Source: a virus
Virus record (IMG/VR): IMGVR_UViG_3300031920_000452
Coordinates: 1 to 21,128 of that record
Reading direction: 5' to 3' (one strand)
DNA length: 21,128 nucleotides
In this document: one piece after another, positions 3,028 to 18,266 of the stretch
Numbering within the stretch: the stretch's first letter is position 1
Layout of the letters: each line of letters begins with the position of its first letter
The notes under the pieces: generated by a model
Database searches by the model: none
What the model saw: the letters and a program-made list of their open reading frames with translations, nothing else
Told to the model about the DNA's origin: nothing
Program-made: the position numbers and the translations under genes

Positions 3028-3044
3028 TACTATTATATACACGA
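3028..3044 (-). promoter_or_regulatory. Phage-specific promoter copy 1, upstream of the 114-aa gene
   Basis: The minus strand reads TCGTGTATATAATAGTA, identical over 17 bases to the copies at 5597..5613 and 8547..8563. TATAAT sits inside it. No TTGACA-like -35 box is visible and the flanks differ among copies, so the element is short and self-contained. It lies just after the capsid terminator and 42 bases before the start codon at 2985, so it should restart transcription for the fibre/structural block. The promoter role is inferred from position and repetition. Confidence 0.8.
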
Positions 3045-3084: not shown

Positions 3085-3123
3085 AAAAAGAAAAAAGGTC
3101 TGAGATTCAAAACCTCAGACCTT
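3085..3123 (-). terminator. Intrinsic terminator after the major capsid gene
   Basis: On the minus strand AAGGTCTGAG (3114..3123) pairs perfectly with CTCAGACCTT (3095..3104) across a nine-base loop, giving a 10-bp stem. A run of T with one interruption (3085..3094) follows. It begins 33 bases after the capsid stop codon and directly precedes the promoter at 3028..3044, so it marks a transcription unit boundary. Confidence 0.88.
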
Positions 3124-3156: not shown

Positions 3157-4176
3157 TTAGAAAGAACCTACGAAAGTCGCGCGTGAATCTAGTACTGCGC
3201 TTCCAACATGTGTCCAACCATAAACTCCGGCTTTGCCACTTCTATGCAGTGTCGGATCATCATACGTGCTTAACATTTCAGAGAAAGGCTGCACAAAGGT
3301 TGTTGCTCGTTTCCGAGGATCGAGATCAAGACCAACAAAGATCTCTTCGTCGCTACCGGTCATCGATGTCTTAGAAGCTAATGCATCATACTTAACCTGA
3401 TATGGCTGACCAACACCGAATTCTGGATAAATATGAACAATAGCGCCGTACAGTTTTGCAAGACCATCATTCACAAAAATATCGCGCATGGTTGTTTCAT
3501 CTATATCACCAGAGCTTAATGTCCAGTTTCTTACATCGCCCATAGCTTCAGGACTGATATAAAGATCTGTTACATCAAAATTCCAAAGACTTGTAGCATT
3601 TCCGCCGGAGCGTTGTGCGCCAATCTTCATCATATTAAAAGCTTTCTTCGTGAAAACACCAACTGAAGCAGCGGTATCGGAATACATAGTGCCTTTTCCG
3701 CCAGCCGCAGCAAGAATAACCGTCCAACCATCGTCATTGTTCTTTTTGGTAAATCCGGCTTCATAAACATCCAGAAGACGAGAAATAACATCGAGACGAG
3801 AGTTTCTAGCATAACTAAGATTCCAATCGATCGAATTAGCAACACGATAGGTCGTAACCCAAGTTTCATCCCCATCAACGTGTCTCAGAGGAACAGCCGC
3901 ACCACTTTCGGGCATAGTATAAGCCGCGTAGTCGTCTTCTGTACCCGTAGCAATCGGATCTTTAGGAAAAGGAACAGAACCGTTCTCTTCTGTAGCATCA
4001 ATCGGCTCAAAAATTCCATTAACATTATCGCCATCAAAAACAGCGCGCTCTACTGGTTCGCTAACAACTGCTTCTGTGAACATTGCCATTGCTTCTGCCG
4101 AAACTTTTGGATCTGAATCTCCAGTTTTCTTGATAAGGTCCTTCGCAGCACTATCAAGATCTTTTAACTTAATCAT
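3157..4176 (-). CDS. Major capsid protein, HK97 fold (339 aa)
   Basis: This is the main building block of the icosahedral head. The start chosen is ATG 4176 (MIKLKDLDSAAKD), because AAGGAG lies seven bases upstream; a longer frame to 4206 has no ribosome site and would overlap the promoter candidate. At 339 residues it has the usual length for this family. The acidic/helical N-terminus is followed by VERAVFDGDNVNGIFEP, RNSRLDVISRLLDVYEAGF (a long spine-like helix near residues 125 to 145), DVTDLYISPEAMGDVRNW, and a C-terminal domain with YDALASKTSMTG and EEIFVGLDLD. This pattern matches HK97-fold capsid proteins. Its place after portal, protease/scaffold and decoration genes is the classic head order. 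It is followed by a strong terminator and preceded by its own promoter candidate, consistent with high expression. The call rests on sequence character plus gene order; no structure search was possible. Confidence 0.85.
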   Translation of the reverse strand: MIKLKDLDSAAKDLIKKTGDSDPKVSAEAMAMFTEAVVSEPVERAVFDGDNVNGIFEPIDATEENGSVPFPKDPIATGTEDDYAAYTMPESGAAVPLRHVDGDETWVTTYRVANSIDWNLSYARNSRLDVISRLLDVYEAGFTKKNNDDGWTVILAAAGGKGTMYSDTAASVGVFTKKAFNMMKIGAQRSGGNATSLWNFDVTDLYISPEAMGDVRNWTLSSGDIDETTMRDIFVNDGLAKLYGAIVHIYPEFGVGQPYQVKYDALASKTSMTGSDEEIFVGLDLDPRKRATTFVQPFSEMLSTYDDPTLHRSGKAGVYGWTHVGSAVLDSRATFVGSF

Positions 4177-4202
4177 TTTGATTCTCCTTAGTAATTTCCA
4201 AC

Positions 4203-4254
4203 GCAATATTATATTGCAGAAATTTTAGTTACAAAATACAGAAATTTTAACTAC
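4203..4254 (-). promoter_or_regulatory. Candidate capsid promoter with dyad and two direct repeats
   Basis: On the minus strand two near-identical 16-base direct repeats, GTAGTTAAAATTTCTG (4239..4254) and GTAACTAAAATTTCTG (4217..4232), start 22 bases apart. They lead straight into the dyad GCAATATAATATTGC (4203..4217), which contains TATAAT. The capsid ribosome site and ATG (4176) follow about 27 bases later. The core ATATAATA is shared with the 17-base promoter, but the flanks are not. The repeats could be activator or sigma contact sites and the dyad an operator. The promoter role is inferred. Confidence 0.5.
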
Positions 4255-4269
4255 ATACATTTTTATTGT

Positions 4270-4713
4270 TTACAGACGAATATCAACATAGTAATACGAA
4301 TCAGAATCTGGCTCTGACATAAACTGACCAACTTCCAATGCTCCAGATGCCTGAACATTACTAACCAGACCAGAAGCCGCAAGATAAGCAACTTCACCAA
4401 CCGTTGCCGTAATTGCAGGATCAACCATATTGGTACGAACTTGACCAATAGTAATAAGACCGAGCTGTTCACCAAAAGCAACATCAGACTTATCAGTAAA
4501 ACGAGGCCGTGCTGTCCAGTCATGATCACCAACATTAACAACAAGAACGCCAACTGGCTTTGCACCACTTGGATTTACAGCATAAGAAACAGAAGTTTCA
4601 TTGCCAGATGCAGCAGTATTAACACTAACAATTCCACCAGCAGTCATAGCAAGACTTGCAGCAACAAATTTCATCTCTGTTGCAGTTACGGTTCTATCAC
4701 CTTTAAGTGCCAT
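4270..4713 (-). CDS. Probable head decoration protein (147 aa)
   Basis: This is a 147-residue protein starting at ATG 4713, with GGAGGG seven bases upstream. It is rich in Ala, Val, Gly and Thr, and has a small-domain beta pattern: GDRTVTATEMKFVAASLA, then GGIVSVNTAASGNETSVSYAV, KPVGVLVVNVGDHDWTARPR, and a closing YYYVDIRL. No transmembrane segment is convincing and there is no catalytic motif. It sits between the scaffold gene and the major capsid gene, where lambda-like and HK97-like phages place the head decoration or stabilisation protein (gpD-type). Its length is also usual for that role. The sequence shows only a small beta-rich soluble protein; the decoration role comes from gene order. 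Confidence 0.65.
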   Translation of the reverse strand: MALKGDRTVTATEMKFVAASLAMTAGGIVSVNTAASGNETSVSYAVNPSGAKPVGVLVVNVGDHDWTARPRFTDKSDVAFGEQLGLITIGQVRTNMVDPAITATVGEVAYLAASGLVSNVQASGALEVGQFMSEPDSDSYYYVDIRL

Positions 4714-4801: not shown

Positions 4802-4861
4802 CTCTTCTAAAAGAAGCCTATTTCTTCTGAAAGAAGCCTTATTTCTTTTCAAAGAAAGCCT
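4802..4861 (-). repeat. Three imperfect ~21-bp tandem repeats, each self-complementary
   Basis: On the minus strand three imperfect units follow one another: AGGCTTTCTTTGAAAAGAAA, AGGCTTCTTTCAGAAGAAAT and AGGCTTCTTTTAGAAGAG. The first encodes the end of the scaffold protein (KAFFEKK-stop); the next two are non-coding copies after the stop. Each can fold into a small hairpin (for example CTTCTTTCAGAAG). They may act as a weak terminator or RNA-processing signal, or may just be duplicated coding sequence. Confidence 0.6.
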
Positions 4862-5558
4862 TTTTGAGACCAGCGATAGCCTTTTCATTTTCCGTTAAAA
4901 GTTTATCGTCTTCTTTGTCCTTCTTTGCAGAAGCCTTATTTAATGCAGCAGTTGCAGCATCTGCGTCGGTATCTGCGTCTGCATCGATATCTACATCAGC
5001 GTCTGCGTCGGTATCTGCATCGGTATCTGCGTCTGCATCTGCATCTGTATCAGCGTCTGCGTCGGTATCTGCATCTGCGTCTTCGCTGTCTTCATCACTA
5101 GCTTCGCTCTTCAAAGGAAGCAATGCATCATATCGAGCAACGAGTTTATCAAATGCGTCTTTGTCTTTATAATCAAGTGTAGCGATTTCTTCTGTGATCA
5201 CTTTTGCCTGATCCTCAGAAATATCATACTTGTCTACAATGACAGCCCGTTCTGCATCAACCTTTTCCTTTTCTGCCTCTTCAATTTTAGCAGTCAGCTC
5301 TTCGTTCTGAGTCTTCAATGTTTCAATATCTGCATCGAAAGTTTTCGCAGCGTCTTCGAGTGCGCTTTTTTCAACATTGATTGTTTTGATCTCTTCAGCC
5401 TTTACACTGAGATCTTCAATCGCCTTATCTGTAGCGACATTAGCTTCAACCAATTCAGCCTTAATTGCCTCAACAGCCTTAACTGCTTCAGAGCTTTTCA
5501 ATGCTTCAATCTCACTTCTAAGCTCTTTGTTTTCAGTTGTCAGTTTTTCAACATCCAT
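4839..5558 (-). CDS. Head scaffold protein, nested in-frame in the protease gene (239 aa)
   Basis: This is an internal translation product of the protease/scaffold gene, starting at ATG 5558 (MDVEKLTTENKELRSEIEAL). The start is supported by an excellent ribosome site, GGAGGTG, six bases upstream, and by a perfect copy of the 17-base phage promoter 38 bases upstream. Residues 1 to about 105 are strongly helical with heptad-like Leu/Ile/Val spacing and many Glu and Lys, predicting a coiled coil. Residues 106 to 150 form a second helical segment (VDKYDISEDQAKVITEEIA). Residues 155 to 205 are an acidic Asp/Ala repeat, and a basic/amphipathic tail follows (LTENEKAIAGLKKAFFEKK). This matches scaffolds: coiled-coil rod, flexible acidic linker, C-terminal capsid-binding helix. 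The arrangement parallels lambda gpNu3 inside gpC. It should act inside the procapsid and be removed by the protease encoded in the longer frame. Confidence 0.82.
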   Translation of the reverse strand: MDVEKLTTENKELRSEIEALKSSEAVKAVEAIKAELVEANVATDKAIEDLSVKAEEIKTINVEKSALEDAAKTFDADIETLKTQNEELTAKIEEAEKEKVDAERAVIVDKYDISEDQAKVITEEIATLDYKDKDAFDKLVARYDALLPLKSEASDEDSEDADADTDADADTDADADADTDADTDADADVDIDADADTDADAATAALNKASAKKDKEDDKLLTENEKAIAGLKKAFFEKK

Positions 5559-6752
5559 GCTATTCACCTCCAATTTATTAAAATTATTTTTTGCTTTACT
5601 ATTATATACACGACTTTTTTCATTTTTAAGATATTTTTCTATATTTTTTTTATTTATTTTTAAATCTATAATGTTGCCAGCCTTGATTTTATATTTATCG
5701 AAGAAAGATGAATCAGCGCAAAAAAGAGTTTTCGCCTTTTGATCTGACATAAGTTTTTTATATCCAGGCTTATTTTTTATGACATCCACTATAACGTTTT
5801 TGCTATTGATCCATGCAACAGATGAATTCTCTGTAATGTTTTTTGTTTCTATTTTTTTATAATATTCTTCTTCGTAAGAAACCATAAATGGGTCTACGAT
5901 CGCAGACTGAGTTTCCGCAAAAACCTTTTCCTCGAATATTGTAGCGGTAATTATTTCGCCGTTTACTGCAACAGCTTTCATTGTTGGGATAGAATGTTTG
6001 ACATATTCCTGCAACCCATTACTGGCAACAGTGAGAATAAAACTATCTTTATTTCCTGGCTCATCAACAATTCCCTGACCACTGAAGAATATGTTACGAA
6101 GAACTCTTTTAACTGTTTTGCCATTAAATATACCAGATCCGCCGAAGCACCTAAGATATTGAACGAGGAAATCTGTTGCTTCTGTTCTTTTGATAATCTC
6201 TTCACCATAAAGGAAATCAAAATCTGCGAAATAACATTCCATTGAGACGAATTTTGTTCCCTTTTTCGCGCCTTCGACAATATCATCTATTATTTCTGGG
6301 TATACATACTTATAAAGAACTCCACTAGATAGAATATGAAAAAATGAATCTTCCCCTTTTTTCTCTATCATTTCTGCAATATCGTCATTTGACAAATATG
6401 ACATATTCTCATTAACGAACTCAGCAGAATACATTGACCCAATAATAAATCTCTTATCATGCTCATTGTTGACTGGTTTTGATGGGATTGTGTCTATCGC
6501 AGGATATAATTCTGTCGGCAAAAAAACGTCATCATTCAAATTCGCGCCAGATGTAACGTGAATTGCGTCAAAATAAAGAAGGTCGAACTGTTTTTCGCGG
6601 ACAAGACTTGGGATATTATCTATCGTATATTGATCTCGATAATCCTCAAATGCCTTCGCTTTATTTTTGGGGATATCTTTAGAGATCTCCGCCTTGGCAG
6701 TTAAATGTATTTTGTACTTATAATCGGCTGGGTCGAATTTTTTTCTATTCAT
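4839..6752 (-). CDS. Prohead maturation protease fused to scaffold region (637 aa)
   Basis: This product should cleave scaffold and capsid proteins during head maturation. The start is ATG 6752 (MNRKKFDPADYK) with AAGGAT upstream; a GTG at 6761 lies too close to that site. Residues 45 to 240 look like a phage prohead protease of the T4 gp21 / herpes assemblin-like group. VNNEHDKRFIIGSMYSAEF around 94 to 112 supplies a candidate catalytic His98, and KGTKFVSMECYFADFDF around 164 to 180 supplies a candidate nucleophile Ser170. SGQGIVDEPGNKDSFIL at 224 to 240 is the usual end of the domain. Residues 241 to 398 are an unrecognised Lys-rich linker. Residues 399 to 637 are the scaffold, also made separately from ATG 5558. 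It lies 24 bases after the portal gene. The catalytic residues are inferred from motif position, not alignment. Confidence 0.8.
   Translation of the reverse strand: MNRKKFDPADYKYKIHLTAKAEISKDIPKNKAKAFEDYRDQYTIDNIPSLVREKQFDLLYFDAIHVTSGANLNDDVFLPTELYPAIDTIPSKPVNNEHDKRFIIGSMYSAEFVNENMSYLSNDDIAEMIEKKGEDSFFHILSSGVLYKYVYPEIIDDIVEGAKKGTKFVSMECYFADFDFLYGEEIIKRTEATDFLVQYLRCFGGSGIFNGKTVKRVLRNIFFSGQGIVDEPGNKDSFILTVASNGLQEYVKHSIPTMKAVAVNGEIITATIFEEKVFAETQSAIVDPFMVSYEEEYYKKIETKNITENSSVAWINSKNVIVDVIKNKPGYKKLMSDQKAKTLFCADSSFFDKYKIKAGNIIDLKINKKNIEKYLKNEKSRVYNSKAKNNFNKLEVNSMDVEKLTTENKELRSEIEALKSSEAVKAVEAIKAELVEANVATDKAIEDLSVKAEEIKTINVEKSALEDAAKTFDADIETLKTQNEELTAKIEEAEKEKVDAERAVIVDKYDISEDQAKVITEEIATLDYKDKDAFDKLVARYDALLPLKSEASDEDSEDADADTDADADTDADADADTDADTDADADVDIDADADTDADAATAALNKASAKKDKEDDKLLTENEKAIAGLKKAFFEKK
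4959..5078 (-). repeat. Asp/Ala (DADADT) codon repeat in the scaffold gene
   Basis: Forty consecutive codons (scaffold residues 161 to 200) encode almost only Asp and Ala with periodic Thr (DADADT units), from short repeats of GAYGCN and ACC codons. Codon third positions vary, so it is not a perfect microsatellite. It probably gives a flexible, highly acidic linker, and the tract is a likely site of length variation. Confidence 0.9.
5565..5571 (-). promoter_or_regulatory. Strong internal ribosome binding site for the nested scaffold
   Basis: The minus strand reads GGAGGTG, followed by AATAGC and ATG (5558). It lies inside the protease coding frame and is one of the best Shine-Dalgarno matches in the window. 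It decides the nested scaffold start. Confidence 0.85.
5597..5613 (-). promoter_or_regulatory. Phage-specific promoter copy 2, inside the protease gene
   Basis: This copy of TCGTGTATATAATAGTA (minus strand) is identical to those at 3028..3044 and 8547..8563. It is embedded in the coding sequence of the long protease/scaffold frame and ends 38 bases before the internal ATG at 5558. It would produce a separate transcript for the scaffold, decoration protein and possibly the capsid protein. That a perfect 17-mer is kept within a coding frame argues for selection on the DNA signal. Confidence 0.82.
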
Positions 6753-6776: not shown

Positions 6777-8492
6777 TTATTTTTGGTCGCCGGACATTTC
6801 CGCAAACTCTGTCATAAGGGAACTGACACAAGAAGCCCAAGCCTTATCCTCTATACCTTTAACGGCTACTGGCCCAGGGGCCTTGCCGGTCTTTTCTTTA
6901 TATTCGGCTATGCTATTTTTAATTGTATCGCTCACTAGTTTATTAAGCTCTTCTGGTGCGTTTTCTAACCGATTGGCTATATCCATTCCGGTAGGCTTTG
7001 TCTCTCTCTCAATTTCTTGCTTTTTGGTATCTCCAAGAGGACGACCAGACCCCGGCTCTCCAAGTGCATCGTCATCTCTTTTGAATGGACCTCTCTTAGT
7101 TATAGTTCCATCCTCTTCCAGCTTATTCTCTCTCTTAATTCTTTCAACTTCAACATCTATATTTTCTCCGATATGTTTCAATGATGTTTCCATGCTGAGA
7201 GCTCCGCGATCAAGCATATCTTTGATAAGCTTTTTCTCTTGGGCTTCATCTCTGAGTGATATTGTATCAATTCTGACTTCTGGATATGTTCTAAATCCAA
7301 GCGTATCGGCTACATATCTTGTCTCTTTTGTCCAAAATTCTATCGCGTTTTCTTGTCCCGTCTTGATTTTCTCTGCAACAGTTTTGACTTGAAGAAACGA
7401 ATTACTAAAATTAGAACCATCGCCATTGACCAAAATTTCTGGAACCCCAAGACCCGACAAAATATCAGCATTAACACTCTCATATTTTTCAGATCCAAGA
7501 ATATCTTTTACCGGTAAGTGTATATTTTCAACTTCTAAATTGTTATCCCACATAACATTAAGGGATGGAGAACTACCACTAATAACAGCAGCAAGTTTTT
7601 TGAATAGCTTTCTTGTCGCCGGAAATTCATCAGACCCAATTTTGAATAAAGTAATTACATTTATAACTGAATCCATAGCCGCCTTATCCATTTCACGAAG
7701 CTTTAACTTGAAATTCACATCATGAATTGACGGATATATCATCGGAATCGCCCATCTATTCCAATCGCTCTTTTTGTATTGCATAATAAAAACTTTTTCA
7801 GTCTCTATCTTTTTTCTACCATCTTTATCTACTTTAGATCCGAGGTATCTAGCAAACTCTTTGTCTGTTGATTCGTTTGATGCGTATTTTCTTGAATAAG
7901 AACTTCCTTTTAATGAGGCGTTTTTTAAATAATATTCTCTATTACCGAGAATGTCGTCACCTTCAATATCAACAGCTCTTGGGTTTATAGATCTATAACC
8001 AATAGGGATTTGCACTTGCCGTTTTGAACCCTGTATGATAGTGTCCATATCACCAAGAACTCTATAAATAATAACATTTGAAGTTTTATAAAATTCTGTC
8101 AAAAATGTATTTGTTCGAGATGTGCTTGAAACCTTCTGACTCCACATATCATAGAATCTTTGAATGCTATTGCTTTTATGTACGAATTCTATACCGTTCG
8201 CAGAAAAATCGCCGAGCATATCTACGATATTTTTCATAAAAGAAACGCTTGAATACATCTCTTGCGAAGCTTTTAACATGCTTAAAATATACTGATCGAC
8301 ATTTTCGTACTTAATCTTATATTCGCCAGAATTTATTCCCTCTGTATGAATATCTCTTTTGAGATTCGCTCTCGCAAATTTAAGAATATCTTCTGTAGCG
8401 GCCTCTAATTCGAGTGGTCCAGATGTAACATTAACATCCGAAGTTTTTACAATAGCTTTTCCTTCTTTTTTACTTACTTTTTTAATAGCCAT
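6777..8492 (-). CDS. Portal protein (571 aa)
   Basis: This protein forms the dodecameric ring at the head vertex through which DNA is packaged and to which the tail attaches. It starts at ATG 8492 with a modest GGAA site seven bases before the ATG. At 571 residues it is in the normal portal size range. Features typical of phage portals include a helical N-terminal region with a VDMLGDFSANGIEFV segment around residue 87, ADILSGLGVPEILVNGDGSNFSN around 343 to 366 (the conserved portal G-x-P-x-x-L turn), and a long helical stem region (VKTVAEKIKTGQENAIEFWTKE). The hydrophilic tail, with FKRDDDALGEPGSGRPLG, is also common near portal C-termini. It directly follows terminase, in the usual order, and has its own promoter copy 54 bases upstream. 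No membrane segments are present. Confidence 0.85.
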   Translation of the reverse strand: MAIKKVSKKEGKAIVKTSDVNVTSGPLELEAATEDILKFARANLKRDIHTEGINSGEYKIKYENVDQYILSMLKASQEMYSSVSFMKNIVDMLGDFSANGIEFVHKSNSIQRFYDMWSQKVSSTSRTNTFLTEFYKTSNVIIYRVLGDMDTIIQGSKRQVQIPIGYRSINPRAVDIEGDDILGNREYYLKNASLKGSSYSRKYASNESTDKEFARYLGSKVDKDGRKKIETEKVFIMQYKKSDWNRWAIPMIYPSIHDVNFKLKLREMDKAAMDSVINVITLFKIGSDEFPATRKLFKKLAAVISGSSPSLNVMWDNNLEVENIHLPVKDILGSEKYESVNADILSGLGVPEILVNGDGSNFSNSFLQVKTVAEKIKTGQENAIEFWTKETRYVADTLGFRTYPEVRIDTISLRDEAQEKKLIKDMLDRGALSMETSLKHIGENIDVEVERIKRENKLEEDGTITKRGPFKRDDDALGEPGSGRPLGDTKKQEIERETKPTGMDIANRLENAPEELNKLVSDTIKNSIAEYKEKTGKAPGPVAVKGIEDKAWASCVSSLMTEFAEMSGDQK

Positions 8493-8546
8493 AAGTTTCC
8501 ATTATTAAATTTGTTTAAAGAATTAGAAGGAGGGCTATTTTCCGCC

Positions 8547-8563
8547 TACTATTATATACACGA
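8547..8563 (-). promoter_or_regulatory. Phage-specific promoter copy 3, upstream of portal
   Basis: This is the third perfect copy of TCGTGTATATAATAGTA (minus strand); it also shares flanking bases (TT before, GG after) with copy 1. It lies in the 96-base gap between terminase and portal, 54 bases before the portal ATG. Upstream of it is an A/T homopolymer-rich stretch (8568..8595) with no recognisable -35 box. It should drive the portal/head operon independently of the terminase transcript. Confidence 0.82.
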
Positions 8564-8588
8564 AATTTTTATTTTTTTTTATTTTTTT

Positions 8589-11570
8589 TTATTTTTGCTC
8601 AATAAATTCTTCCATCCATCCACCTATATCATCACTATCGTCATATCTTGGAACAATACCGGCAGATGATTCTACGGCAGATGCAGCATAATTTGCCAAT
8701 AACAATGCACTATATAAGTCCTTACGCCCCTTGATCTTACGCTTATTTTCACCGTCATTTATTACGGATGTCGGAACGTCGAAATGTGCGAGTCCAGACT
8801 GAGTTAATGACAACTGAACACTCATAACCTGTTTTGCTAAAGTATCGATATCTTCGTATGCATTTTCAATCTGAATGGACTTTCCTCCCTGTCTTGGGAA
8901 TAATATCCGTCTATGTTGAAAATCTCCCTGTAAATCATTATTCGCTTTTAATATCCACTGCGAAGAAAAATTTACCATCTCCATTATATATCTTCCATCC
9001 TCACAATTAGGCTTCAATAAAGACTCTTCGAAAATTCTTGGCTGTTCTTTCATAATATCCTTATTGCTTAAATAGCTGTTTATGGTCCAACCACCACCAC
9101 CAGCATCGACTGCAACGCGACGAACATCATAAGACATAAAAAGTCCCTTGATTATGGCTATTGCCTCAGTATAATTAAAATCCTCTATACAGATAGCTCT
9201 GATTATTTTTCTATAATCACTCCCAACTCTTATAATGACAATTCCTCCAACAGCCTCTTTCCCACCAGAACTAGGATCAATACCCATAACGCAAACATCT
9301 CCATCATTTGATCGTGTCTGTGCGTAAAATTGATCACCAGAATTAGAGTTTTCATAGTTACATTTTCTTAAATCTGCATACTTAAAAAATCCATCTGAAT
9401 TTCCTTGAAACTCGCAAAGCAACTCCATTGCAAAAGAACTTTTACTCATCGTTAATCTTGCTTGGCTTATTTGTTTTTCGTCCATATATCCGCGTGGCAG
9501 ATTTTTAAAATTCAAATGATATACAATGTAATCTGTATAATCAACATATTCTGCTCCAACCGCATCGCTTCCAGCGTTACTAACAGACCCCTTATATTTA
9601 CCATTTATAATGCCAAGATATTTTGAATATGTTCTATAAAAATGATTCTCCATAAACCAAGCAGTCCCAAACAGACAAATCTGATTTGAAGATAATCTCA
9701 ATTCTGGCGGAACTTCTTTTCCCTGTCTTCTTAATTCTTGTATTTTTGCGACAACCTTAACTCTCTTAACTGGATCGGCGGCAACAGACGCGAAGTTTCT
9801 TACAACAACCTGAAAAATATCATAATCTATACTCGCGAATTCATCGACCAGAACCCTTGTGGCTCTCATACCTCTAACGCTCGATCCATCACCTAGCGGA
9901 ATCGCTTTAATTGAAGATAACCCTATAATGAGTTCTGCTGTCGTCGTTCCCTTAGTAGGTCTTTTTGGAGCAATTCTTCTTAATATTGGGGCTCTATTAT
10001 ATATTTTGATAATCTCATCGAAAATAAGAAGAGAGTTGTGATTCAGAAATCCAGAAGCAAAATACCGAGAACTATTCGCAACTTCAATGTCATGTGTAAT
10101 ATTTTTTTTATTCTCAACTTTTACGATTTCATCATTGAATACTTTTTCAATAGAATATAGAGATAATAATTCTTCTATTTTGTATTCTTTGGCTATTTTT
10201 TTTACTCTCTCTATAGGGATTCTTTTTGATCTTACAAATTCTCCCCAAGTATGATATGAGACACCGTTATCGAGAAATATCTTTCTTAGTTCGTCTGTGA
10301 GATCGATAGAATCTCTATGCTTCGTCCTTCTCATTTTAACACCAACAGTTGAAGATAGATCTTTGTGATATGTATCAAGACCAAAAATCGAAGAAAATTT
10401 ATCGCAATCTTCCTTCATTCGGATCTCTATCTTTACAGAAGATTTTTTAATAATGAGTTTGCTTATTATGCCGAAGTTGAGCAAGAGCATATGAATCAAT
10501 TTATGAGCTTCGAGATTAGATCCTGGGATAACAACAGTTGGAACTTTTGTTTTTTTGTTGATCTTAATAGAGCAGATACTTTCAAAATAGGATCTTAAAA
10601 ACTCAAGAACAATGTTTCGATCTGACTCAAGTATAAATTTTGGAATCTTCCTCTCGGTAAAATCGAAATCATTACACTTGAAAAAATTATAAATAAAATC
10701 GTCGTCTATTTTGCATTCTGTTCTTTTGCCGTTTTTGACTATTGTTGACTTGGTATTAAAATACTTTTTGGCAATCTTTGAAAAATCAGAAACAAAAGAT
10801 CTTTCTTTCGAGTGAAATTTAAGTCCGACATCCTGAACGACGCAGAATTTAGAAAAAAGCTTTCCTACGAACCATGCAATATCCTCATTAACAACATCTG
10901 GCTGTTTCATTTTTCTTCTTGTATTTTCTGGTCCTTCCAACTTATCGAATTTACATCTCTTCTTCGCGAAACAATCTTGACCATAATATATCTGAATTGT
11001 ATCTCCAGAAGATAATCCCTCAATCTTTTTCCATTCGCCACCGACTAAAACTCTATGCCCCTCAGCTCCCTCTTCTGAATACCCGTTTCTGGTAGTGATC
11101 TTAATAGTTATCTGCTCTTCGTTGACCCATTTGTTTTTAACTTTATTTCTTCCGCCCATATCTTCAATAACAGTGCCTTTTACCAAATCTTCGAATCTTT
11201 TTATTCCGTCCTCTGTAAAAAAAACTGCATCTCCAGTAAGACACTGCCGATAGCTTTTTGAAACAAGTACAATTTTAGACCCTTGATCTACAATCGAAGT
11301 GCAGAGTGCATATAGGGCATAAATAAAAGATTTTCCGAGACCACGACTCCCAACTAATAACGGAAAAGATTTATGATACATTGATGTTAGAATATAATTC
11401 TGGAATGGAAAAATTTCTGTATTCAATACATACTTACAGAGAATACCAAAATTAGAAATACAAAGTTGCGCAAATTGCTCGCTAAGAGGATTCTCAACAA
11501 CGTCCGGCAAATAAAAGATATTATCAGTTCTAAATTGTGCTGGTTCAAGAATCAACGGAATTCCCCCCAA
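8589..11570 (-). CDS. Terminase large subunit, intein-containing precursor (993 aa)
   Basis: This is the ATP-driven DNA packaging motor and headful or cohesive-end nuclease. The N-extein (residues 1 to 109) has Walker A, GSRGLGKS, at 74 to 81. The C-extein (513 to 993) has Walker B, RVLVDEFASID, with D576 and E577. The RNase H-like nuclease domain shows three candidate metal-binding acids: D765 (VMGIDPSSGG), D822 (VAVDAGGGG) and D951 (GRKDLYSALLLA). Excision of residues 110 to 512 leaves 590 residues, a normal terminase length. The frame overlaps the nuclease gene upstream by 26 bases if it starts at TTG 11570. A TTG at 11555, preceded by a G-run (GGGGGGA), is an equally plausible start. No small terminase subunit is visible. 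The gene ends just before the portal promoter. Confidence 0.93.
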   Translation of the reverse strand: MGGIPLILEPAQFRTDNIFYLPDVVENPLSEQFAQLCISNFGILCKYVLNTEIFPFQNYILTSMYHKSFPLLVGSRGLGKSFIYALYALCTSIVDQGSKIVLVSKSYRQCLTGDAVFFTEDGIKRFEDLVKGTVIEDMGGRNKVKNKWVNEEQITIKITTRNGYSEEGAEGHRVLVGGEWKKIEGLSSGDTIQIYYGQDCFAKKRCKFDKLEGPENTRRKMKQPDVVNEDIAWFVGKLFSKFCVVQDVGLKFHSKERSFVSDFSKIAKKYFNTKSTIVKNGKRTECKIDDDFIYNFFKCNDFDFTERKIPKFILESDRNIVLEFLRSYFESICSIKINKKTKVPTVVIPGSNLEAHKLIHMLLLNFGIISKLIIKKSSVKIEIRMKEDCDKFSSIFGLDTYHKDLSSTVGVKMRRTKHRDSIDLTDELRKIFLDNGVSYHTWGEFVRSKRIPIERVKKIAKEYKIEELLSLYSIEKVFNDEIVKVENKKNITHDIEVANSSRYFASGFLNHNSLLIFDEIIKIYNRAPILRRIAPKRPTKGTTTAELIIGLSSIKAIPLGDGSSVRGMRATRVLVDEFASIDYDIFQVVVRNFASVAADPVKRVKVVAKIQELRRQGKEVPPELRLSSNQICLFGTAWFMENHFYRTYSKYLGIINGKYKGSVSNAGSDAVGAEYVDYTDYIVYHLNFKNLPRGYMDEKQISQARLTMSKSSFAMELLCEFQGNSDGFFKYADLRKCNYENSNSGDQFYAQTRSNDGDVCVMGIDPSSGGKEAVGGIVIIRVGSDYRKIIRAICIEDFNYTEAIAIIKGLFMSYDVRRVAVDAGGGGWTINSYLSNKDIMKEQPRIFEESLLKPNCEDGRYIMEMVNFSSQWILKANNDLQGDFQHRRILFPRQGGKSIQIENAYEDIDTLAKQVMSVQLSLTQSGLAHFDVPTSVINDGENKRKIKGRKDLYSALLLANYAASAVESSAGIVPRYDDSDDIGGWMEEFIEQK
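10035..11243 (-). other. Intein in terminase with degenerate LAGLIDADG endonuclease (403 aa)
   Basis: This in-frame insertion encodes residues 110 to 512 of the terminase precursor. Splice block A begins with Cys1 (CLTGDAVFFTEDG). Block B is GAEGHRVLV with His63; the usual Thr three residues earlier is Ala. Block F is ITHDIEVANSSRYFASG, and block G is GFLNHN with the penultimate His and terminal Asn. The next residue is Ser, as required for splicing. The join restores SKSYRQ-SLLIFDEI. The central part is LAGLIDADG-like: DIAWFVGKLFSKF (about 121 to 133) and VLEFLRSYFESIC (about 212 to 224). In both, the position of the catalytic acid seems replaced (Lys and Ile). Self-splicing is therefore likely, but homing activity is probably lost. 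The insertion point lies 28 residues after the Walker A motif. Confidence 0.92.
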
Positions 11571-12046: not shown

Positions 12047-12775
12047 TCACACTCCTATTGCTTTTATGTTGTTATTTTCGTTATTCTCTATTAACCCATG
12101 AATACTACACTGGAAGACTGTTATCTCTCCCAACGAAGATAGCATATTTATTTTTTCAAGACTTACTTCATCTGCATAAGTCAGAATCTTACACCATTCT
12201 ACGGGGGATATTTTTGTCATTCTATATTTGTCATTGTATGCTTCGTCGTTGACACTTAATCCTCCTCCATTCGTAAAAGAAAGAACAACTAATCTTGACG
12301 CATCCATTGTTACACGACTAAGACCTTCCATTATTCTATAAATTTCTTCCTCTGAATAATATTCAAGAATTGCAGAAGCAAAAACAACATTAAATTCATC
12401 TTCTTCAAAATATTCTGGTAGATTTAAAATATCTCCGCAAACAACCTTACTTTTAATATCTGGAGCACACACATTCTCAATCGCGTAATCTGATATATCA
12501 ACGCCTTTTGTATTTACACCTGAATCGTTTAACATCTTAACGAGATATCCGAATCCGCATCCAAGATCTAAAGCTTTTATGCCACCTTTAAAAAGACCAA
12601 CTCTTGAATAAAGTTTTTCTATCTCTTTCATAACGCTGATTAAACAGGAATATGATTTCCTATAGTTGTCGAGCGTTAGACCTTCTTCGTTATAATAAGA
12701 GATATCTCTATTCGTGAAATATTCCTTATTGAATAATTCTCTTTTTGTTTTTTTGAACTTATTCTCAAGATTCAA
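12047..12775 (-). CDS. SAM-dependent class I methyltransferase (242 aa)
   Basis: The predicted role is methyl transfer from S-adenosylmethionine to a small molecule, sugar or glycan. It starts at TTG 12775, supported by an excellent GGAGGGAG site six bases upstream; the codon overlaps the preceding stop (TATTGA). Rossmann methyltransferase motifs are clear. Motif I is ALDLGCGFGYLV at residues 68 to 79, the ribose-binding acid lies in GVDIS (Asp93), then come VVCGDILNLP (111 to 120) and FNVVFASAILEYYSEEE (128 to 144) as motif IV/post-IV. The length and layout are those of UbiE/Methyltransf_11-type enzymes. Its position at the end of the sugar cassette suggests O- or N-methylation of the glycan, although its neighbour on the other side is the nuclease/terminase pair. 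The substrate is unknown. Confidence 0.85.
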   Translation of the reverse strand: MNLENKFKKTKRELFNKEYFTNRDISYYNEEGLTLDNYRKSYSCLISVMKEIEKLYSRVGLFKGGIKALDLGCGFGYLVKMLNDSGVNTKGVDISDYAIENVCAPDIKSKVVCGDILNLPEYFEEDEFNVVFASAILEYYSEEEIYRIMEGLSRVTMDASRLVVLSFTNGGGLSVNDEAYNDKYRMTKISPVEWCKILTYADEVSLEKINMLSSLGEITVFQCSIHGLIENNENNNIKAIGV

Positions 12776-13920
12776 TATTGGCTCCCTCCAAATAGATAAT
12801 TTAACCTATTGTTCATTTTTTTAACAGCGTCCTTCCAAGTCCAATTGTTTACCATATCTAACCTGGCAACGATCCCAAGATCTATCCCTTTTTCTCTATT
12901 ACTGTAAAGATATTTCATCTTATCGATCAAATCATCCTCAGATGGATCAGCCCAATTTTGACCAGCATAGGATGGATGTCTTGAATAAAACGAAGCTGGA
13001 ACCGGCACTATCTTGTAGTCGAGCAGTAGGCTGTTTGACGTATTCATAAACTCTGTGTTTCCAGACCACCCAGTCGATATAGTCGGCAATCCGGTAGCCA
13101 TCGCCTCAGATGCTGTCAAAGACCAACCTTCGCCGGAAGAACATGAAACATAGGCATCTAACGTCGCGTAAAATTCTGGTATCTGTGAGTCTGGAATAAT
13201 ATTAGAAATAAGATAAACCTTTGGAAAATCTTTAACATCGACACTTTCCTTGCATTCCTCTATTCTGTCAACCATATATTTTAAAGATTCACTGACTGGA
13301 TGCTGAAAATATGATTTTAATAAAAGAACAACATCTTTTCTGCCATCAAAAGCTTTCCAGTATGCTTTTAATAATAATTCTGGATTCTTTCTGTCCGTCC
13401 AGTCGAAATTGGCGCCAAAAACATACGTGTCTTTAAAATGTTTCTTAAACTTTTCGAATCCTGCATTCATAGGAGAGAATTTGTCAGTATCGACTCCATG
13501 AGGAATCACAGTTATCGGTCTATTAATTCCGGCACTCCTAAACGCACTCTGTCCAAATCTTGTATATGTCCAAATCTCATCCATCGCTTGCATTTTCATA
13601 ACCCAATCATTCGGCAAACCATCTGTTTCGAATGTGGTCATTCCAATATGATATGGAATACTTTTATCGTAAACAAAAATATTCGGAGTTAAATTTTGGA
13701 CAAAGCAATCTGATTTCTCATTGTCGGAAACTATCATTTCTCTGACTTCTGGGAATTCCTTGGATAAAGAAACAAGTTTTCCATTAAAGAAATTTCTCGG
13801 AATTAACCTAACATTTATCTCTTCACTATGATATTTGGATAGATTGCTTAAATAGGATCTTGTGCAAGACCCGTACCCAGAACAATCTTTTGCGCTTCCA
13901 GACCAAACAACATCTATCAT
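12772..13920 (-). CDS. Glycosyltransferase, GT4-type GT-B fold (382 aa)
   Basis: This enzyme should transfer a sugar from a nucleotide-sugar donor with retention of configuration. It starts at ATG 13920 with GGAGAAG five bases upstream and is one base from the preceding stop. The N-terminal domain (about 1 to 155) binds acceptor. The linker ITVIPHGVDTDKFSP (136 to 150) is typical of the family. The C-terminal donor domain runs from TYVFGANFDWTDRKNPELLLKA to the signature SSGEGWSLTASEAMATGLP (261 to 279), which includes the EX7E pair Glu264 and Glu272. No membrane segment is present. It is one of three glycosyltransferases in the cassette and the only GT-B one. The acceptor may be a host surface glycan or a virion protein. 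The family call is strong; the substrate is unknown. Confidence 0.9.
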   Translation of the reverse strand: MIDVVWSGSAKDCSGYGSCTRSYLSNLSKYHSEEINVRLIPRNFFNGKLVSLSKEFPEVREMIVSDNEKSDCFVQNLTPNIFVYDKSIPYHIGMTTFETDGLPNDWVMKMQAMDEIWTYTRFGQSAFRSAGINRPITVIPHGVDTDKFSPMNAGFEKFKKHFKDTYVFGANFDWTDRKNPELLLKAYWKAFDGRKDVVLLLKSYFQHPVSESLKYMVDRIEECKESVDVKDFPKVYLISNIIPDSQIPEFYATLDAYVSCSSGEGWSLTASEAMATGLPTISTGWSGNTEFMNTSNSLLLDYKIVPVPASFYSRHPSYAGQNWADPSEDDLIDKMKYLYSNREKGIDLGIVARLDMVNNWTWKDAVKKMNNRLNYLFGGSQY

Positions 13921-13921
13921 T

Positions 13922-14782
13922 TTATCTTCTCCGATCTTTTATTATATTAGAATTAAACAAAGCTTCTATTACATCACTTGGCTTAAATCCAAATTCGCCA
14001 GCAATTATATCGACACCCCTTTTAAGTCCATGAAATTGACAGAAAAGCCAAATTTTGCTTTTGAGTCTCTCGTCGTCACTTGGTAGAGCCTGACCTCTCG
14101 ATAGAATAAGTCTGCATAAGTCCTTCATTATGTTATCTTCAAATAATATTGCAGCATTGCTCTGTACGCAATGACCCCCAATTGGACCATCAACATGATT
14201 AAGAATTGGTCTTACGACATTCTCCATTCCGAGTTTCTTATATCCGTAATTATAAGTCTCTGTCCAGTCTCTGTAAGCAATATCATAATCAATCTCTAAT
14301 TTGTCGCATTCTTCCTTCATCATTTTTTCAAATGCAATCTCCATGCCGTATCTGGTTGTAGACATGAGCTTCGAAAATTCTAACGTCTTTCTCTTCTCAA
14401 CACATCTCGCATTTAATCCTAATCCAACAAGGTAGACCCTCAATTCTTCGTTTATCGGCGCCAAATATTTTACAAAAGTTCTAATCCCATCCTCTAAATT
14501 TGGATGAACTCCGCGAATCGGAGAATAATACGCATTACATAGATCGGAAGTTCCAATTTTAACGGTAGAATGAATTATTGTGTATTCTGGCTGATATTGT
14601 TCTATATATTTATTTACAATAGAAACAAAATTATCAGAATATGGAATACAAATATGTAGAATAAAAATATTGTCTATACTAAGTGGCTCTATGTCTTTAA
14701 TGAATGTGTCGGGTTCGGCTTTTTTAATAATATTATATACAGCCTTACCTACTTCTCCACCGCCAATAATTAAATTTCGCAT
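13922..14782 (-). CDS. Compact UDP-sugar 6-dehydrogenase-like oxidoreductase (286 aa)
   Basis: It starts at ATG 14782 with AAGGAAA upstream. The N-terminal Rossmann motif is LIIGGGEVGKAVY (4 to 16). HSTVKIGTS (71 to 79) and RGVHPNLEDGIRTF (90 to 103) match positions conserved in NDP-sugar dehydrogenases. TLEFSKLMSTTRYGMEIAFE (133 to 152) corresponds to the helix carrying a catalytic Lys (Lys138 here). GPIGGHCVQSNAAIL (199 to 213) matches the catalytic-Cys segment of the UDP-GlcNAc/ManNAc dehydrogenase group (GGHC, Cys205). The usual C-terminal UDP-binding domain is missing: 286 residues against about 400 to 430. It may therefore act on a smaller or different substrate, or have lost activity. 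It would feed an acidic sugar to the neighbouring glycosyltransferases. The family assignment is fair; the reaction is inferred. Confidence 0.72.
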   Translation of the reverse strand: MRNLIIGGGEVGKAVYNIIKKAEPDTFIKDIEPLSIDNIFILHICIPYSDNFVSIVNKYIEQYQPEYTIIHSTVKIGTSDLCNAYYSPIRGVHPNLEDGIRTFVKYLAPINEELRVYLVGLGLNARCVEKRKTLEFSKLMSTTRYGMEIAFEKMMKEECDKLEIDYDIAYRDWTETYNYGYKKLGMENVVRPILNHVDGPIGGHCVQSNAAILFEDNIMKDLCRLILSRGQALPSDDERLKSKIWLFCQFHGLKRGVDIIAGEFGFKPSDVIEALFNSNIIKDRRR

Positions 14783-14794
14783 AAGATTTCCTTG

Positions 14795-15916
14795 TTAAAT
14801 TAGGTTTCTATCAACATTGTCATTAACAAAAAAGTTATTAAAAAACTTATCATATCCATAATTACTACATCGGATATTGCATTGTGGTCCTTTTCCATCA
14901 CAATTCAATATATTTCTTACGATATTAACATGTTTGGACGACCCCCAGGCTTCTTTTAGCGCCATCCACCCATCAGTTCCACAATCACACAATAATGTTT
15001 TCTCGTCGTATCTTCTGTCTACACACGGCCAACATTTTCCATCAGATGTCATCGTTACAGTCAGCGGTGTTAAATGGCAGTACTTTGGAAGAACCTTTTT
15101 AAAATCATCTGTAAACTTATGCCTTACTCCAACAATCTCAAAAACGCCTTCTTCGTTAAAATCATCCATCGCCCTCATTATTTGACTATTAACTTCAAAG
15201 ATATTTATTTGAGCTCTTTCATCTGCCGGTAAATCGGCTGGTCTGATCTGAACGTATGAAGTTCCAAGATCTTTTGCTATACGACATGCTTCATAAAGAG
15301 TCTTGTATGTATCTGGCAAAATCAAAAACTTAAAACCTATGTCTTTCCTTATCTTATTTTTATCTACAGATTTAACTAATTTTTCGATATTCCCAAGAAC
15401 TTTTTCCCAAGCGTCTCTTGGTGCGTTTTTGCATTTTAAATAAGATTCCTTCGTTCCTGCGTCCATAGATATTCCAATAAATTTTGTATAAAACGTTGAG
15501 TATTCAATCATCAAATCGCTAAAAGCATATCCGTTTGTCACGAGCCCCATTTCTACACCAGAAAAGAAAACAGACCGAAGTAATTCATGCAACCTCGGAT
15601 AAAGAAGCGCATCTCCCTTACTGCCAACACAACAAATAGCCTTTATCTTTTGACCGTTCACATCCCAATGCTGTAAAAAATAAGGAAGAGTCTCAAGTAG
15701 CCTATCTGATAAATCTGGCAACGATCTATCTCCTATTTGTTTCCGTCTATGATGACAATGATTGCATCTATACTGACATCGGCCTGTAACGTCCAAATTC
15801 AATACAATTGGCGGTAAATACATCTCGTTCACTATTGCTTCCATCCTATCGCCATGCGCCAAAATTTTCTGCGAGTTAAATGGATTATACGGGTTGTCCC
15901 ACTCTCTTGTTCCCAT
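14795..15916 (-). CDS. Radical SAM enzyme with SPASM/twitch C-terminus (373 aa)
   Basis: It starts at ATG 15916, with AGGAGAT six bases upstream. The radical SAM cluster motif CxxxCxxC is CQYRCNHC, with Cys47, Cys51 and Cys54. The core barrel follows, with AICCVGSKGDALLYP (GGE-like region), MGLVTNGYAFSD and FIGISMDAGTKESYLK. The C-terminal part is Cys-rich: KYCHLTPLTVTMTSDGKCWPCVDRR, LLCDCGTDGW and CNIRCSNYG. This matches a SPASM or twitch auxiliary iron-sulphur domain. Such enzymes perform dehydrogenation, epimerisation or peptide modification by a 5'-deoxyadenosyl radical. In this cassette, between a glycosyltransferase and a sugar dehydrogenase homologue, a sugar-modifying role like that of BtrN-type dehydrogenases is plausible. 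Modification of a ribosomal peptide is less likely because no precursor gene is visible. The substrate is unknown. Confidence 0.88.
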   Translation of the reverse strand: MGTREWDNPYNPFNSQKILAHGDRMEAIVNEMYLPPIVLNLDVTGRCQYRCNHCHHRRKQIGDRSLPDLSDRLLETLPYFLQHWDVNGQKIKAICCVGSKGDALLYPRLHELLRSVFFSGVEMGLVTNGYAFSDLMIEYSTFYTKFIGISMDAGTKESYLKCKNAPRDAWEKVLGNIEKLVKSVDKNKIRKDIGFKFLILPDTYKTLYEACRIAKDLGTSYVQIRPADLPADERAQINIFEVNSQIMRAMDDFNEEGVFEIVGVRHKFTDDFKKVLPKYCHLTPLTVTMTSDGKCWPCVDRRYDEKTLLCDCGTDGWMALKEAWGSSKHVNIVRNILNCDGKGPQCNIRCSNYGYDKFFNNFFVNDNVDRNLI

Positions 15917-15927
15917 TCTGTGATCTC

Positions 15928-16689
15928 CTAACTATTCACTTCGTCAAATTTGATATTTGTATATCCCCAATTCTCATTATTTTTTTTAAGTTTTAAATTT
16001 TCTTTATTCGCTCTTGGTTCATCCCTCTTACTCCTTGACTCTTTTGCGTAATCGCTATCATCATGATGGTCTACGTGCCAAATTTCAAAATTCCAAAGAG
16101 GAATCGAGGTAGATCCTTTTTCAATAATATCAACTGCAAACATCGTATCGGAACACCCACTTATTTCTCCAATCCTGAATCCATTCACGGAAAACGCAGA
16201 CTTCTTATCCACCAACATAAAATCTCCAGTTGCACCCATTGCAGACGCAGGCTTTTTACACCTCACAACTCCCTCTTTTGTTATATGGAGTTTTGATCCA
16301 AAATATATCTTTTTCTTATCTATGCTCTTTAATGGGAAGCTATTACAAAAAATAATATCTGGATTACCTATTACTAAAAAATCACTATTTGCTCTTGCAA
16401 CTCCAATATTTTTGGCAACATACTCCATAACACCAAATTCTGATTTATCTGTTATCGTTTTATGAAATTCATTTGGGACAATTATCCATCTAATACCTTC
16501 AGTGTCAATCTCTTCATGTAAATGCTTCCTATCTTTTAGATTATTATATTCTACAAATATAATTTCAAGATCAAAATTAGAGAAAGACGATCTCACACTA
16601 CCAAAAAAACTTTTAATTCTATTTGAGTTATCAGAAATATAGTCATCATTTCTTCCACTTACAATTACAGAAAGTTTCTGCTTAGACAT
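15928..16689 (-). CDS. GT-A-fold glycosyltransferase, GT2-like (253 aa)
   Basis: It starts at ATG 16689, with GGAGGT six bases upstream, and overlaps the previous gene by eight bases. The N-terminus LSVIVSGRNDDYISDN is the nucleotide-binding strand of family-2-type transferases. VAKNIGVARANSDFLVIGNPDIIF (residues 91 to 114) is the diagnostic helix plus donor/metal-binding strand, with NPD at 109 to 111 in place of a strict DxD. GATGDFMLVDKKSAFSVNGF (152 to 171) and GEISGCSDTMFAVDII match the acceptor-side segment of GT2/galactosyltransferase-like domains. FEIWHVDHHDDSDY, near 201 to 214, may supply a metal-binding His. No membrane anchor is present, so it acts in the cytoplasm. The last 35 residues are Lys/Glu-rich. 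Donor and acceptor are unknown. Confidence 0.82.
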   Translation of the reverse strand: MSKQKLSVIVSGRNDDYISDNSNRIKSFFGSVRSSFSNFDLEIIFVEYNNLKDRKHLHEEIDTEGIRWIIVPNEFHKTITDKSEFGVMEYVAKNIGVARANSDFLVIGNPDIIFCNSFPLKSIDKKKIYFGSKLHITKEGVVRCKKPASAMGATGDFMLVDKKSAFSVNGFRIGEISGCSDTMFAVDIIEKGSTSIPLWNFEIWHVDHHDDSDYAKESRSKRDEPRANKENLKLKKNNENWGYTNIKFDEVNS

Positions 16690-17656
16690 TAAAATACCTC
16701 CAGTCGTAACTATTAAACGTATCTACAAACTCACTCATAATAGATCCAGAAAGTTCCTTTTTAACAGACTCTATATTCTCTCTCGCCGGATCGTGGCAAA
16801 AACCCCATTTTTTCAAAAAAGAACTATGGGCAATATCTCTATATTCTCTTATCATCGCAGCAGACCTTGTGCTAGGATTTATATAATTTGACCTATGATG
16901 CTCTGTTAAAAATTCAGGTATCCAACAATTATAATATCCAGACTTCATTGCTTCTATATTGTAATCTAGTTCGTTGAGAAGCGTCCAGGGTGTCCAATCT
17001 TCAATTTTCGAGATATTGGACGCATTCTCTGTTTTCAATACCATAACAGCAGACCATGATGAAAATATCTTGACAGGTCCGCTTGGATAATCAAGTAGTG
17101 CTTCCTCGCTCTCTGTCCATTCACTGTAAATCTTTTCCCTTCCCCAGTTATCAGGAAGATTATGAAACTGAAAAGCAACACCCTTATTCCAAGCTCCATC
17201 CAAAACATCTTTATAAAAACCATCTCTACAAGGTGTTATTGGAGATCTTGTTTTCTTATATGTTGTACACGTTGATGTTATTACTCCTACATTATCAATA
17301 TTTTTAACATTTTTCTCTATAATATTAAACCAACTATCGCAACGAATAAAAACATCGTCATGAAATATAGCGATGTATTCGAATTCACCCTGAGCAAAAT
17401 CTATCGCATCATTTATATCTTTAGCCCAAGATCCAATACTATCCTTCAAAACGACATTTTCGTTAGAAGATTCAATTTGTTTTGCTAAAAAAGAAACATC
17501 ACCTAAAACATTATTCTCGTCTAAGTAAATCAAGTGAATAAACTCAGATATATCTAATCCAACGTTCTTATATATAGTTTCAAAAGACGTTGAAAATACA
17601 AAAGAGTCTGAAAGCTTAGAAGACAATGTTTGAACAATTAATAATTTTTTACTCAT
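16682..17656 (-). CDS. Probable GT-A-fold glycosyltransferase (324 aa)
   Basis: It starts at ATG 17656, with a GAGGGAAAT site directly upstream, seven bases after the previous stop. FEYIAIFHDDVFIRCDSWF (residues 92 to 110) is the donor/metal-binding strand of a GT-A fold, with HDD at 99 to 101 serving as the DxD-like element. The preceding SWAKDINDAIDFAQGE helix matches the usual helix that precedes it. IFSSWSAVMVLKTENAS (near residue 194) and WTLLNELDYNIEAMKSGYYNCWIPEF resemble the acceptor and C-terminal segments of GT2-like enzymes that act on saccharides. EHHRSNYINPS provides a His-rich motif after this. It has no signal peptide or membrane segment. It overlaps the next glycosyltransferase, so the two may be translated together and build successive linkages. 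The family is inferred from motif shape. Confidence 0.72.
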   Translation of the reverse strand: MSKKLLIVQTLSSKLSDSFVFSTSFETIYKNVGLDISEFIHLIYLDENNVLGDVSFLAKQIESSNENVVLKDSIGSWAKDINDAIDFAQGEFEYIAIFHDDVFIRCDSWFNIIEKNVKNIDNVGVITSTCTTYKKTRSPITPCRDGFYKDVLDGAWNKGVAFQFHNLPDNWGREKIYSEWTESEEALLDYPSGPVKIFSSWSAVMVLKTENASNISKIEDWTPWTLLNELDYNIEAMKSGYYNCWIPEFLTEHHRSNYINPSTRSAAMIREYRDIAHSSFLKKWGFCHDPARENIESVKKELSGSIMSEFVDTFNSYDWRYFNV

Positions 17657-17663
17657 ATTTCCC

Positions 17664-18266
17664 TCAAAATGGCTGAAAATTTATATGATTGTCAATTCCA
17701 ACAAAAATAAATACAGCACCAACACCTACATTTGCAAGCCCATATTCGGATCTCTGATTGTACCTTATATCTCTGACATCAGAATTAGACAAAAACTCTG
17801 AAATGTACTTTATATCGCTAACTCCATTATATTTCAAATTCAAATTTTCTGACTTAAAATCGTGTATGCATAAAACAAATTGTTTGAAGCCTCTATTCTG
17901 TATAACTAAAAGTTCGTCATCCAAAATTAAGCTTCCGCTTTTATTCCCGCAGTTAGCATCAAGAAAAAATAATCCTGCTCCATTTAACTCTTCAATATCG
18001 TCAATCATATCTACCGACGGGCAATTTGAAAGTTTTACGTTTTTATTCTTATCGGCATTAAGAAATTTTATAGAAGAATTGAAATAATTAGCATCAACTT
18101 CTGCTCCGTACAACTCAACACTTGGATATTTCTCGCTTATTTTTTTTAGTATATATGCATCACGAAAACCTGTTTCAATGTAGGTTGTTATTTTAAAATT
18201 CTCTATTATTGACAAAAAAGAATCAACTAAAAACTTATCATATTGTCTTTTTTCGCTATCTTCCAT
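17664..18266 (-). CDS. Class I methyltransferase-like protein (200 aa)
   Basis: The start chosen is ATG 18266, which shares its A with the TGA stop of the preceding gene and has GGGGGAAG upstream. A GTG at 18269 is also in frame. TTYIETGFRDAYIL (27 to 40) has the ETG form of the SAM-binding loop, LYGAEVDANYFNSSI (52 to 66) gives the ribose-binding strand, and GLFFLDANCG (98 to 107) is motif IV. QFVLCIHDFKSEN (129 to 141) provides a further strand and His-Asp pair. This pattern recalls hypothetical methyltransferase-like proteins associated with glycan clusters, where an E-TG loop and FFLDAH-type motif occur together. The catalytic residues cannot be verified. Context suggests modification of a sugar or of a glycosyltransferase product. 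A non-catalytic binding role is possible. Confidence 0.65.
   Translation of the reverse strand: MEDSEKRQYDKFLVDSFLSIIENFKITTYIETGFRDAYILKKISEKYPSVELYGAEVDANYFNSSIKFLNADKNKNVKLSNCPSVDMIDDIEELNGAGLFFLDANCGNKSGSLILDDELLVIQNRGFKQFVLCIHDFKSENLNLKYNGVSDIKYISEFLSNSDVRDIRYNQRSEYGLANVGVGAVFIFVGIDNHINFQPF

Follow-up and report, generated by a model that had tools for sequence, protein, structure and literature searches.

Capsid assembly poses a basic problem of numbers: hundreds of scaffold and shell copies are required, together with few proteases and only twelve portals. Phages whose protease and scaffold are fused are usually thought to balance these parts by translation from one mRNA, and herpesviruses by means of a nested promoter. 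The DNA analysed here, a stretch of 21,128 nucleotides from IMG/VR virus record IMGVR_UViG_3300031920_000452 (hereafter the window), raises the question of whether a phage can also control its scaffold in the second way. A preliminary description of the sequence had proposed that the protease gene contains a nested scaffold gene under a promoter of its own.

Head genes and the protease domain

The head genes of the window follow the order terminase (with an intein), portal, protease-scaffold, a 147-aa head protein, putative major capsid protein and terminator, and the features concerned are:

6777–8492, minus strand: portal gene (phrog_2739 portal, E 4e-11)
4839–6752, minus strand: protease-scaffold ORF, 637 aa (homologous syntenic ORF in 108 family loci)
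6006–6752, minus strand: N-terminal procapsid protease domain, aa 1–249 (AlphaFold model, structural matches)
4839–5558, minus strand: nested scaffold gene, 239 aa, start ATG 5558, MDVEKL...FEKK (in-frame ORF)
5567–5571, minus strand: Shine-Dalgarno GGAGG of the nested start (anti-SD duplex energy)
4270–4713, minus strand: 147-aa head protein, presumed decoration protein, without an element of its own (synteny; the L004 relative matches phrog_563, virion structural protein)
3157–4176, minus strand: putative major capsid gene, without an element of its own (synteny, weak PHROG matches)
3095–3123, minus strand: intrinsic terminator closing the head unit (terminator prediction)

Relatives have the same order of head genes, as do three distantly related phages in culture, MaeS, Slash and SPbeta. 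No minus-strand terminator was predicted between 8563 and 3123. The structural model of the capsid protein was too poor for use (pLDDT 45), and the identity of this protein therefore rests on synteny and weak PHROG matches.

For the protease-scaffold protein, Pfam and PHROGs gave no usable match, and a sequence-profile search against the PDB likewise found none, similarity to solved proteases being undetectable at that level; identification was therefore by predicted fold only. The AlphaFold model of residues 1–249 (pLDDT 83.7) was compared with known structures by VIA-align, and the matches included the assemblin of VZV (Z 11.7), that of PRV (10.8) and T4 gp21 (5jbl, 10.2). Ranks 1–37 were all herpesvirus proteases or gp21, and the next unrelated row had a Z of 6.1. 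With Foldseek, these families came out as well, at E values that were weak (0.04 at best). Of the candidate catalytic residues, H98 and S170 do not vary across 51 sequences, and H139 is kept in at least 90%. As modeled, the protease domain has a fold of the assemblin/gp21 type.

The nested start

As the preliminary description had stated, the internal ATG at 5558 lies in the protease frame; it opens a product of 239 aa. The ribosome site in front of it, TTGGAGGTGAATAGC, reaches -10.6 kcal/mol in anti-SD duplex energy, which makes it the strongest among the internal start codons of ORF 4839–6752 and among the best in the 21,128-base window. The start is thus internal, in frame and preceded by a Shine-Dalgarno sequence, as in lambda C/Nu3, and the scaffold part shares both the frame and the 3' end of the protease gene, which at the level of sequence is the arrangement of UL26/UL26.5.

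The scaffold character attributed to this segment was retained in part. Its acidic stretch of 47 residues carries a net charge of -25, and its tail is mildly basic (+3); for the proposed coiled coil, heptad periodicity is no more than modest, the best block having p about 0.01. The acidic linker, Asp-Ala-Thr, is encoded by an in-frame DNA repeat at 4960–5090. This acidic Asp-Ala repeat is missing in the closest relative, a 154-kb contig (L012), and was therefore probably expanded recently.

A promoter-like element in the window

Upstream of the nested start lies one of three copies of a promoter-like element:

5597–5613, minus strand: nested promoter element TCGTGTATATAATAGTA (exact repeat, synonymous-codon tests)
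8547–8563, minus strand: promoter element TCGTGTATATAATAGTA upstream of the portal gene (exact repeat)
3028–3044, minus strand: promoter element TCGTGTATATAATAGTA after the terminator, upstream of gene 2985–2641 (exact repeat)

The core GTATATAATAGTA occurs exactly at 3028–3040, 5597–5609 and 8547–8559, every copy on the minus strand; the promoter copy that had been noticed 38 nt upstream of ATG 5558 is thus exact and ends at 5597. When up to two mismatches are allowed, four matches are found in the window against 0.97 expected. The identity of the three sites extends to the 17-mer TCGTGTATATAATAGTA, of which about 1.6e-5 copies are expected by base composition. The portal-side copy sits in the gap between terminase and portal.

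The three sites have only TCGTGTATATAATAGTA in common and share no upstream hexamer. The element is thus short and downstream-only, with no -35, as in T4 late promoters, and it is A+T-rich, like an extended -10 element. A generic sigma-70 scan of the window showed no excess (80 vs 71.6), and a scan of viral contigs for the exact 17-mer gave two single-copy matches only. As far as sequence can tell, the copy at 5597–5613 departs from the lambda C/Nu3 arrangement, in which no promoter precedes the scaffold start.

Conservation of the element as DNA

The capsid protein of L012 is 57% identical to that of the window, and its protease-scaffold protein 41%. In this relative, GGTGTATATAATAATAGTA precedes the nested ATG, whose ribosome site is TTAAGGAGGAGAGC, GGTGTATATATAATTAG precedes the portal gene, and GGTGTATATTATAGTAGGG follows a terminator-like hairpin behind the capsid gene. 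A matrix built from the three window sites alone was scanned over the whole contig (about 308,800 positions), where the post-capsid site ranked 1st, the portal site 6th and the nested site 7th. Top scores in simulated sequences ranged from 12.5 to 15.7; the portal and nested sites of L012 score within this range and are not significant by score alone, so that it is their positions that count. Between its capsid gene and the post-capsid promoter, L012 also has an extra ORF of 596 aa (7148–8938) with several helix-turn-helix matches, which is absent from the window.

A capsid-profile search of viral contigs identified at least 531 related stretches, of which 80 were kept. In the family, 108 protease-scaffold ORFs were extracted, forming 52 clusters at 80% identity and 27–28 at 60%. 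A tblastn search with the protease and capsid proteins found no cultured phage, and all family members with the GTGTA[AT] element are uncultured. A relative is also present in four contigs from metagenome-assembled bacterial genomes, which are probably binned phage contigs. Three clades were distinguished: clade A, which comprises the window and L012; clade B, with an ORF of about 640–683 aa and a nested product of 165–192 aa; and clade C, with an ORF of about 480–550 aa and a nested product of about 200–270 aa.

Nearly every ORF of the family has a nested start preceded by a ribosome site, and the start is shared by MaeS, Slash and SPbeta, cultured phages that are distantly related. Some of the clade B ribosome sites at this start are weak (L033, -2.9 kcal/mol). 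The distance of GTGTA[AT] upstream of the nested start is 53 nt in clade A, 24–27 nt in clade B and mostly 44 nt in clade C. Exceptions are L014, which has no clear nested start, and L130, which has no element.

The retention of the element was assessed by a synonymous test, in which the amino acids were fixed, codons were redrawn from each locus's own usage, and the element was sought 24–59 nt upstream. Of 28 representatives (<60% identity), 25 had GTGTA[AT] before the nested start, where 2.8 were expected (P 8e-25); the corresponding figures were 6 of 8 clusters at <45% identity against 0.85 (P 7e-6) and 4 of 5 at <35% identity against 0.51 (P 2e-4). These P values assume that clusters are independent of one another, an assumption that related sequences satisfy only approximately. 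When the rule that defines the nested start was altered slightly, the element was present in 24 of 27 representatives (2.6 expected). At other in-frame ATGs of the same ORFs, it was found once in 322 cases, against 1.9 expected.

The codons at the site point in the same direction. In clade C, the Gly-Val at the site is written GGTGTA in 35/35 cases, as opposed to 5/39 elsewhere; in clade B, Val-Tyr is written GTGTAT in 9/9 cases at the site and in 0/8 elsewhere, and GTG makes up 9% of Val codons. Moreover, the hexamer lies in reading frame 0 in clade B and in frame +1 in clades A and C. Codons that are fixed at the site and a frame that shifts between clades place selection on the DNA and not on the protein.

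Possible recognition of the element

Between genes, the element is strongly oriented, with a density of 3.62 per kb in the sense direction vs 0.43 in the antisense direction in clade B, and of 2.52 vs 0.43 in clade C. It lies no more than 80 nt ahead of the portal, protease and post-capsid genes, except that the clade A protease gene lacks an element of its own. Among the 51 representatives, 49 have the element before the nested start and none before the capsid gene; it stands before the decoration gene in clade B, but outside that clade in only 1 of 42 cases, a member of clade C. In clades A and C, the nested element is therefore the nearest one ahead of the genes for scaffold, decoration and capsid proteins. 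From this layout, the nested promoter probably raises the whole high-copy shell module over portal and protease, and not just scaffold over protease.

As for the factor that may read the element, a small Sigma70 region 2 protein is encoded in all nine long contigs of the family (9/9), in several of them no more than a few kb away from the head genes; the sigma-like gene of L012 is distant from these. In the nine contigs, matches to region 4 fall in other proteins than those with region 2, with one exception. In T4, the late promoter consists of 8 bp, and its recognition is confined to this downstream site, with no equivalent of sigma region 4 (PMC2988020). A link between the small sigma protein and the element would fit this pattern; the evidence for it is circumstantial and comes from the long relatives. 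A search of the nine contigs for a T7-type RNA polymerase gave no match, but its control gave none either, and the result says little.

Proposed mechanism and alternatives

The element, the ribosome site, the conservation of both as DNA and the gene order are observed, and the protease fold is a model; from these we infer a transcription start, a short protein, a stoichiometry, a cleavage and a role for sigma, which would combine as follows. Very probably, judging from the comparative evidence, the locus holds two 3'-coterminal genes in one frame, and a further late promoter lies within the part that codes for the protease. The portal promoter (8563–8547) would give a long mRNA for portal, full protease-scaffold, scaffold, decoration and capsid proteins. 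The nested promoter (5613–5597) would give a shorter one, expected to start near 5594, about 35 nt before ATG 5558, to code for the 239-aa scaffold alone, decoration and capsid, and to end at the terminator (3123–3095). The high-copy shell parts would thereby be in excess over portal (12 copies) and protease. The full-length protein would enter the procapsid through the shared scaffold part, carrying the protease inside, and would later cleave the scaffold free. Host RNA polymerase probably reads the element together with a small phage sigma factor without region 4, comparable to gp55 of T4.

The foremost alternative is that ribosomes use the nested start on the long mRNA only, as in lambda C/Nu3, and that the element is not a promoter. 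Internal scaffold starts without a promoter of their own occur in Mu-like phages (PMC4378225), one gene serves for both proteins in lambda and P2 (PMC8508860), and MaeS, Slash and SPbeta have a nested start without the element. However, translation from the long mRNA leaves unexplained why GTGTA[AT] is retained at synonymous sites 24–59 nt upstream of the start, and why the same element stands before intergenic late genes; we consider this reading improbable, though it is the one that deserves most attention after an internal promoter.

It is considerably less probable that the element is a signal for RNA processing or mRNA stability, which would provide a 5' end for the scaffold mRNA with no new transcription. 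A signal of this kind would leave the same trace in the DNA, on one strand only and ahead of late genes, as was found, but the element is A+T-rich and resembles an extended -10, and at 3044, as at the same place in L012, it lies directly behind a terminator, where not much upstream RNA would be available for processing. Least likely, and rejected because of the codon fixation at the site, is that the element codes for a conserved peptide motif such as a protease cleavage site separating protease and scaffold: Val-Tyr (clades A and B) or Gly-Val (clade C) does occur just before the scaffold, but its codons are fixed (35/35 and 9/9) although synonymous ones are common in the same genes, residues and frame vary between clades, and the identical 17-mer is also found in non-coding DNA.

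Comparison with known systems

An internal promoter that drives a scaffold gene is known from herpesviruses. In HSV-1, a promoter inside the protease coding region of UL26 gives the 3'-coterminal scaffold transcript UL26.5 (PMC2949831), and a comparable UL80.5 transcript is known for UL80 of HCMV (PMC9732275). In both pairs, as in the window, a protease of assemblin fold (here a model) is fused to a scaffold, and an in-frame, 3'-coterminal scaffold gene is present. Unlike in herpesviruses, the ribosome site here is of bacterial type, the promoter is -10-like, and the shorter mRNA is expected to include decoration and capsid genes as well.

The likeness to lambda C/Nu3 suggested in the preliminary description applies to the internal in-frame start; UL26/UL26.5, which has a promoter inside the protease coding region, is the closer parallel. 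In lambda C/Nu3 as in Mu, the scaffold start lies in frame within the protease gene and has its own Shine-Dalgarno sequence, but here a DNA element common to other late genes precedes it. The protease/scaffold genes of lambda and Mu rely on one shared late transcript, and lambda C is generally classed with ClpP/SppA-type proteases, whereas the model obtained here resembles assemblin and gp21. T4 shares with the window the modeled gp21 protease fold (5jbl, Z 10.2) and the short downstream-only form of the promoter; its gp55-type sigma factor without region 4 may have a counterpart in the small sigma proteins of the long relatives. It differs in that the element here is GTGTATAWW and not the T4 octamer, and the protease and scaffold of T4 are in separate genes.

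SPbeta YonD, Slash and MaeS have in common with this family the order portal, protease-scaffold, small head protein, capsid, and a nested start with a strong ribosome site, but no GTGTA element at that start. Control by a dedicated promoter is therefore not universal, and the nested start would be the older feature, to which the promoter was added in this lineage. The protease-scaffold genes of these phages are annotated as hypothetical (MaeS, L145 7219–8283; Slash, L147 6848–7867; SPbeta YonD, L148 5835–7271, with its internal start at codon 232).

Taken together, these comparisons make it probable that a widespread lineage of uncultured phages sets its capsid stoichiometry in a herpesvirus-like manner, with an assemblin-type protease gene, an internal promoter and a 3'-coterminal scaffold transcript. 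A search of the open-access literature for a phage whose protease-scaffold gene has an internal promoter returned no report. The assemblin-like protease of this phage group, together with its conserved promoter-like element, would link the phage and herpesvirus solutions. The nested promoter may be convergent or a remnant from a common ancestor of tailed phages and herpesviruses, convergence being more likely than common descent of the promoter. If the nested promoter is real, the ratio of scaffold to protease should depend on GTGTATATAATAG. In addition, GTGTA[AT] together with the ribosome site is a signature by which the scaffold can be annotated in at least 500 related contigs.

Further features of the two clade A phages are recorded here. 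A small palindrome around TATAATAT precedes the capsid gene in both (window, 4177–4275, minus strand; L012, upstream of 6004; GCAATATAATATTGC; GGGATATAATATCC) and may represent a further promoter or a hairpin in the leader. In the window, the gene for the large terminase subunit (8589–11570, minus strand) contains an intein with a LAGLIDADG-like domain, and that of L012 apparently does too. Upstream of the terminase (12047–20917, minus strand), the window encodes a methyltransferase, a glycosyltransferase, two radical SAM proteins, a NeuB-family synthase (E 1e-62) and a DegT aminotransferase, a sugar-related cassette that suggests the synthesis of surface or virion glycans.
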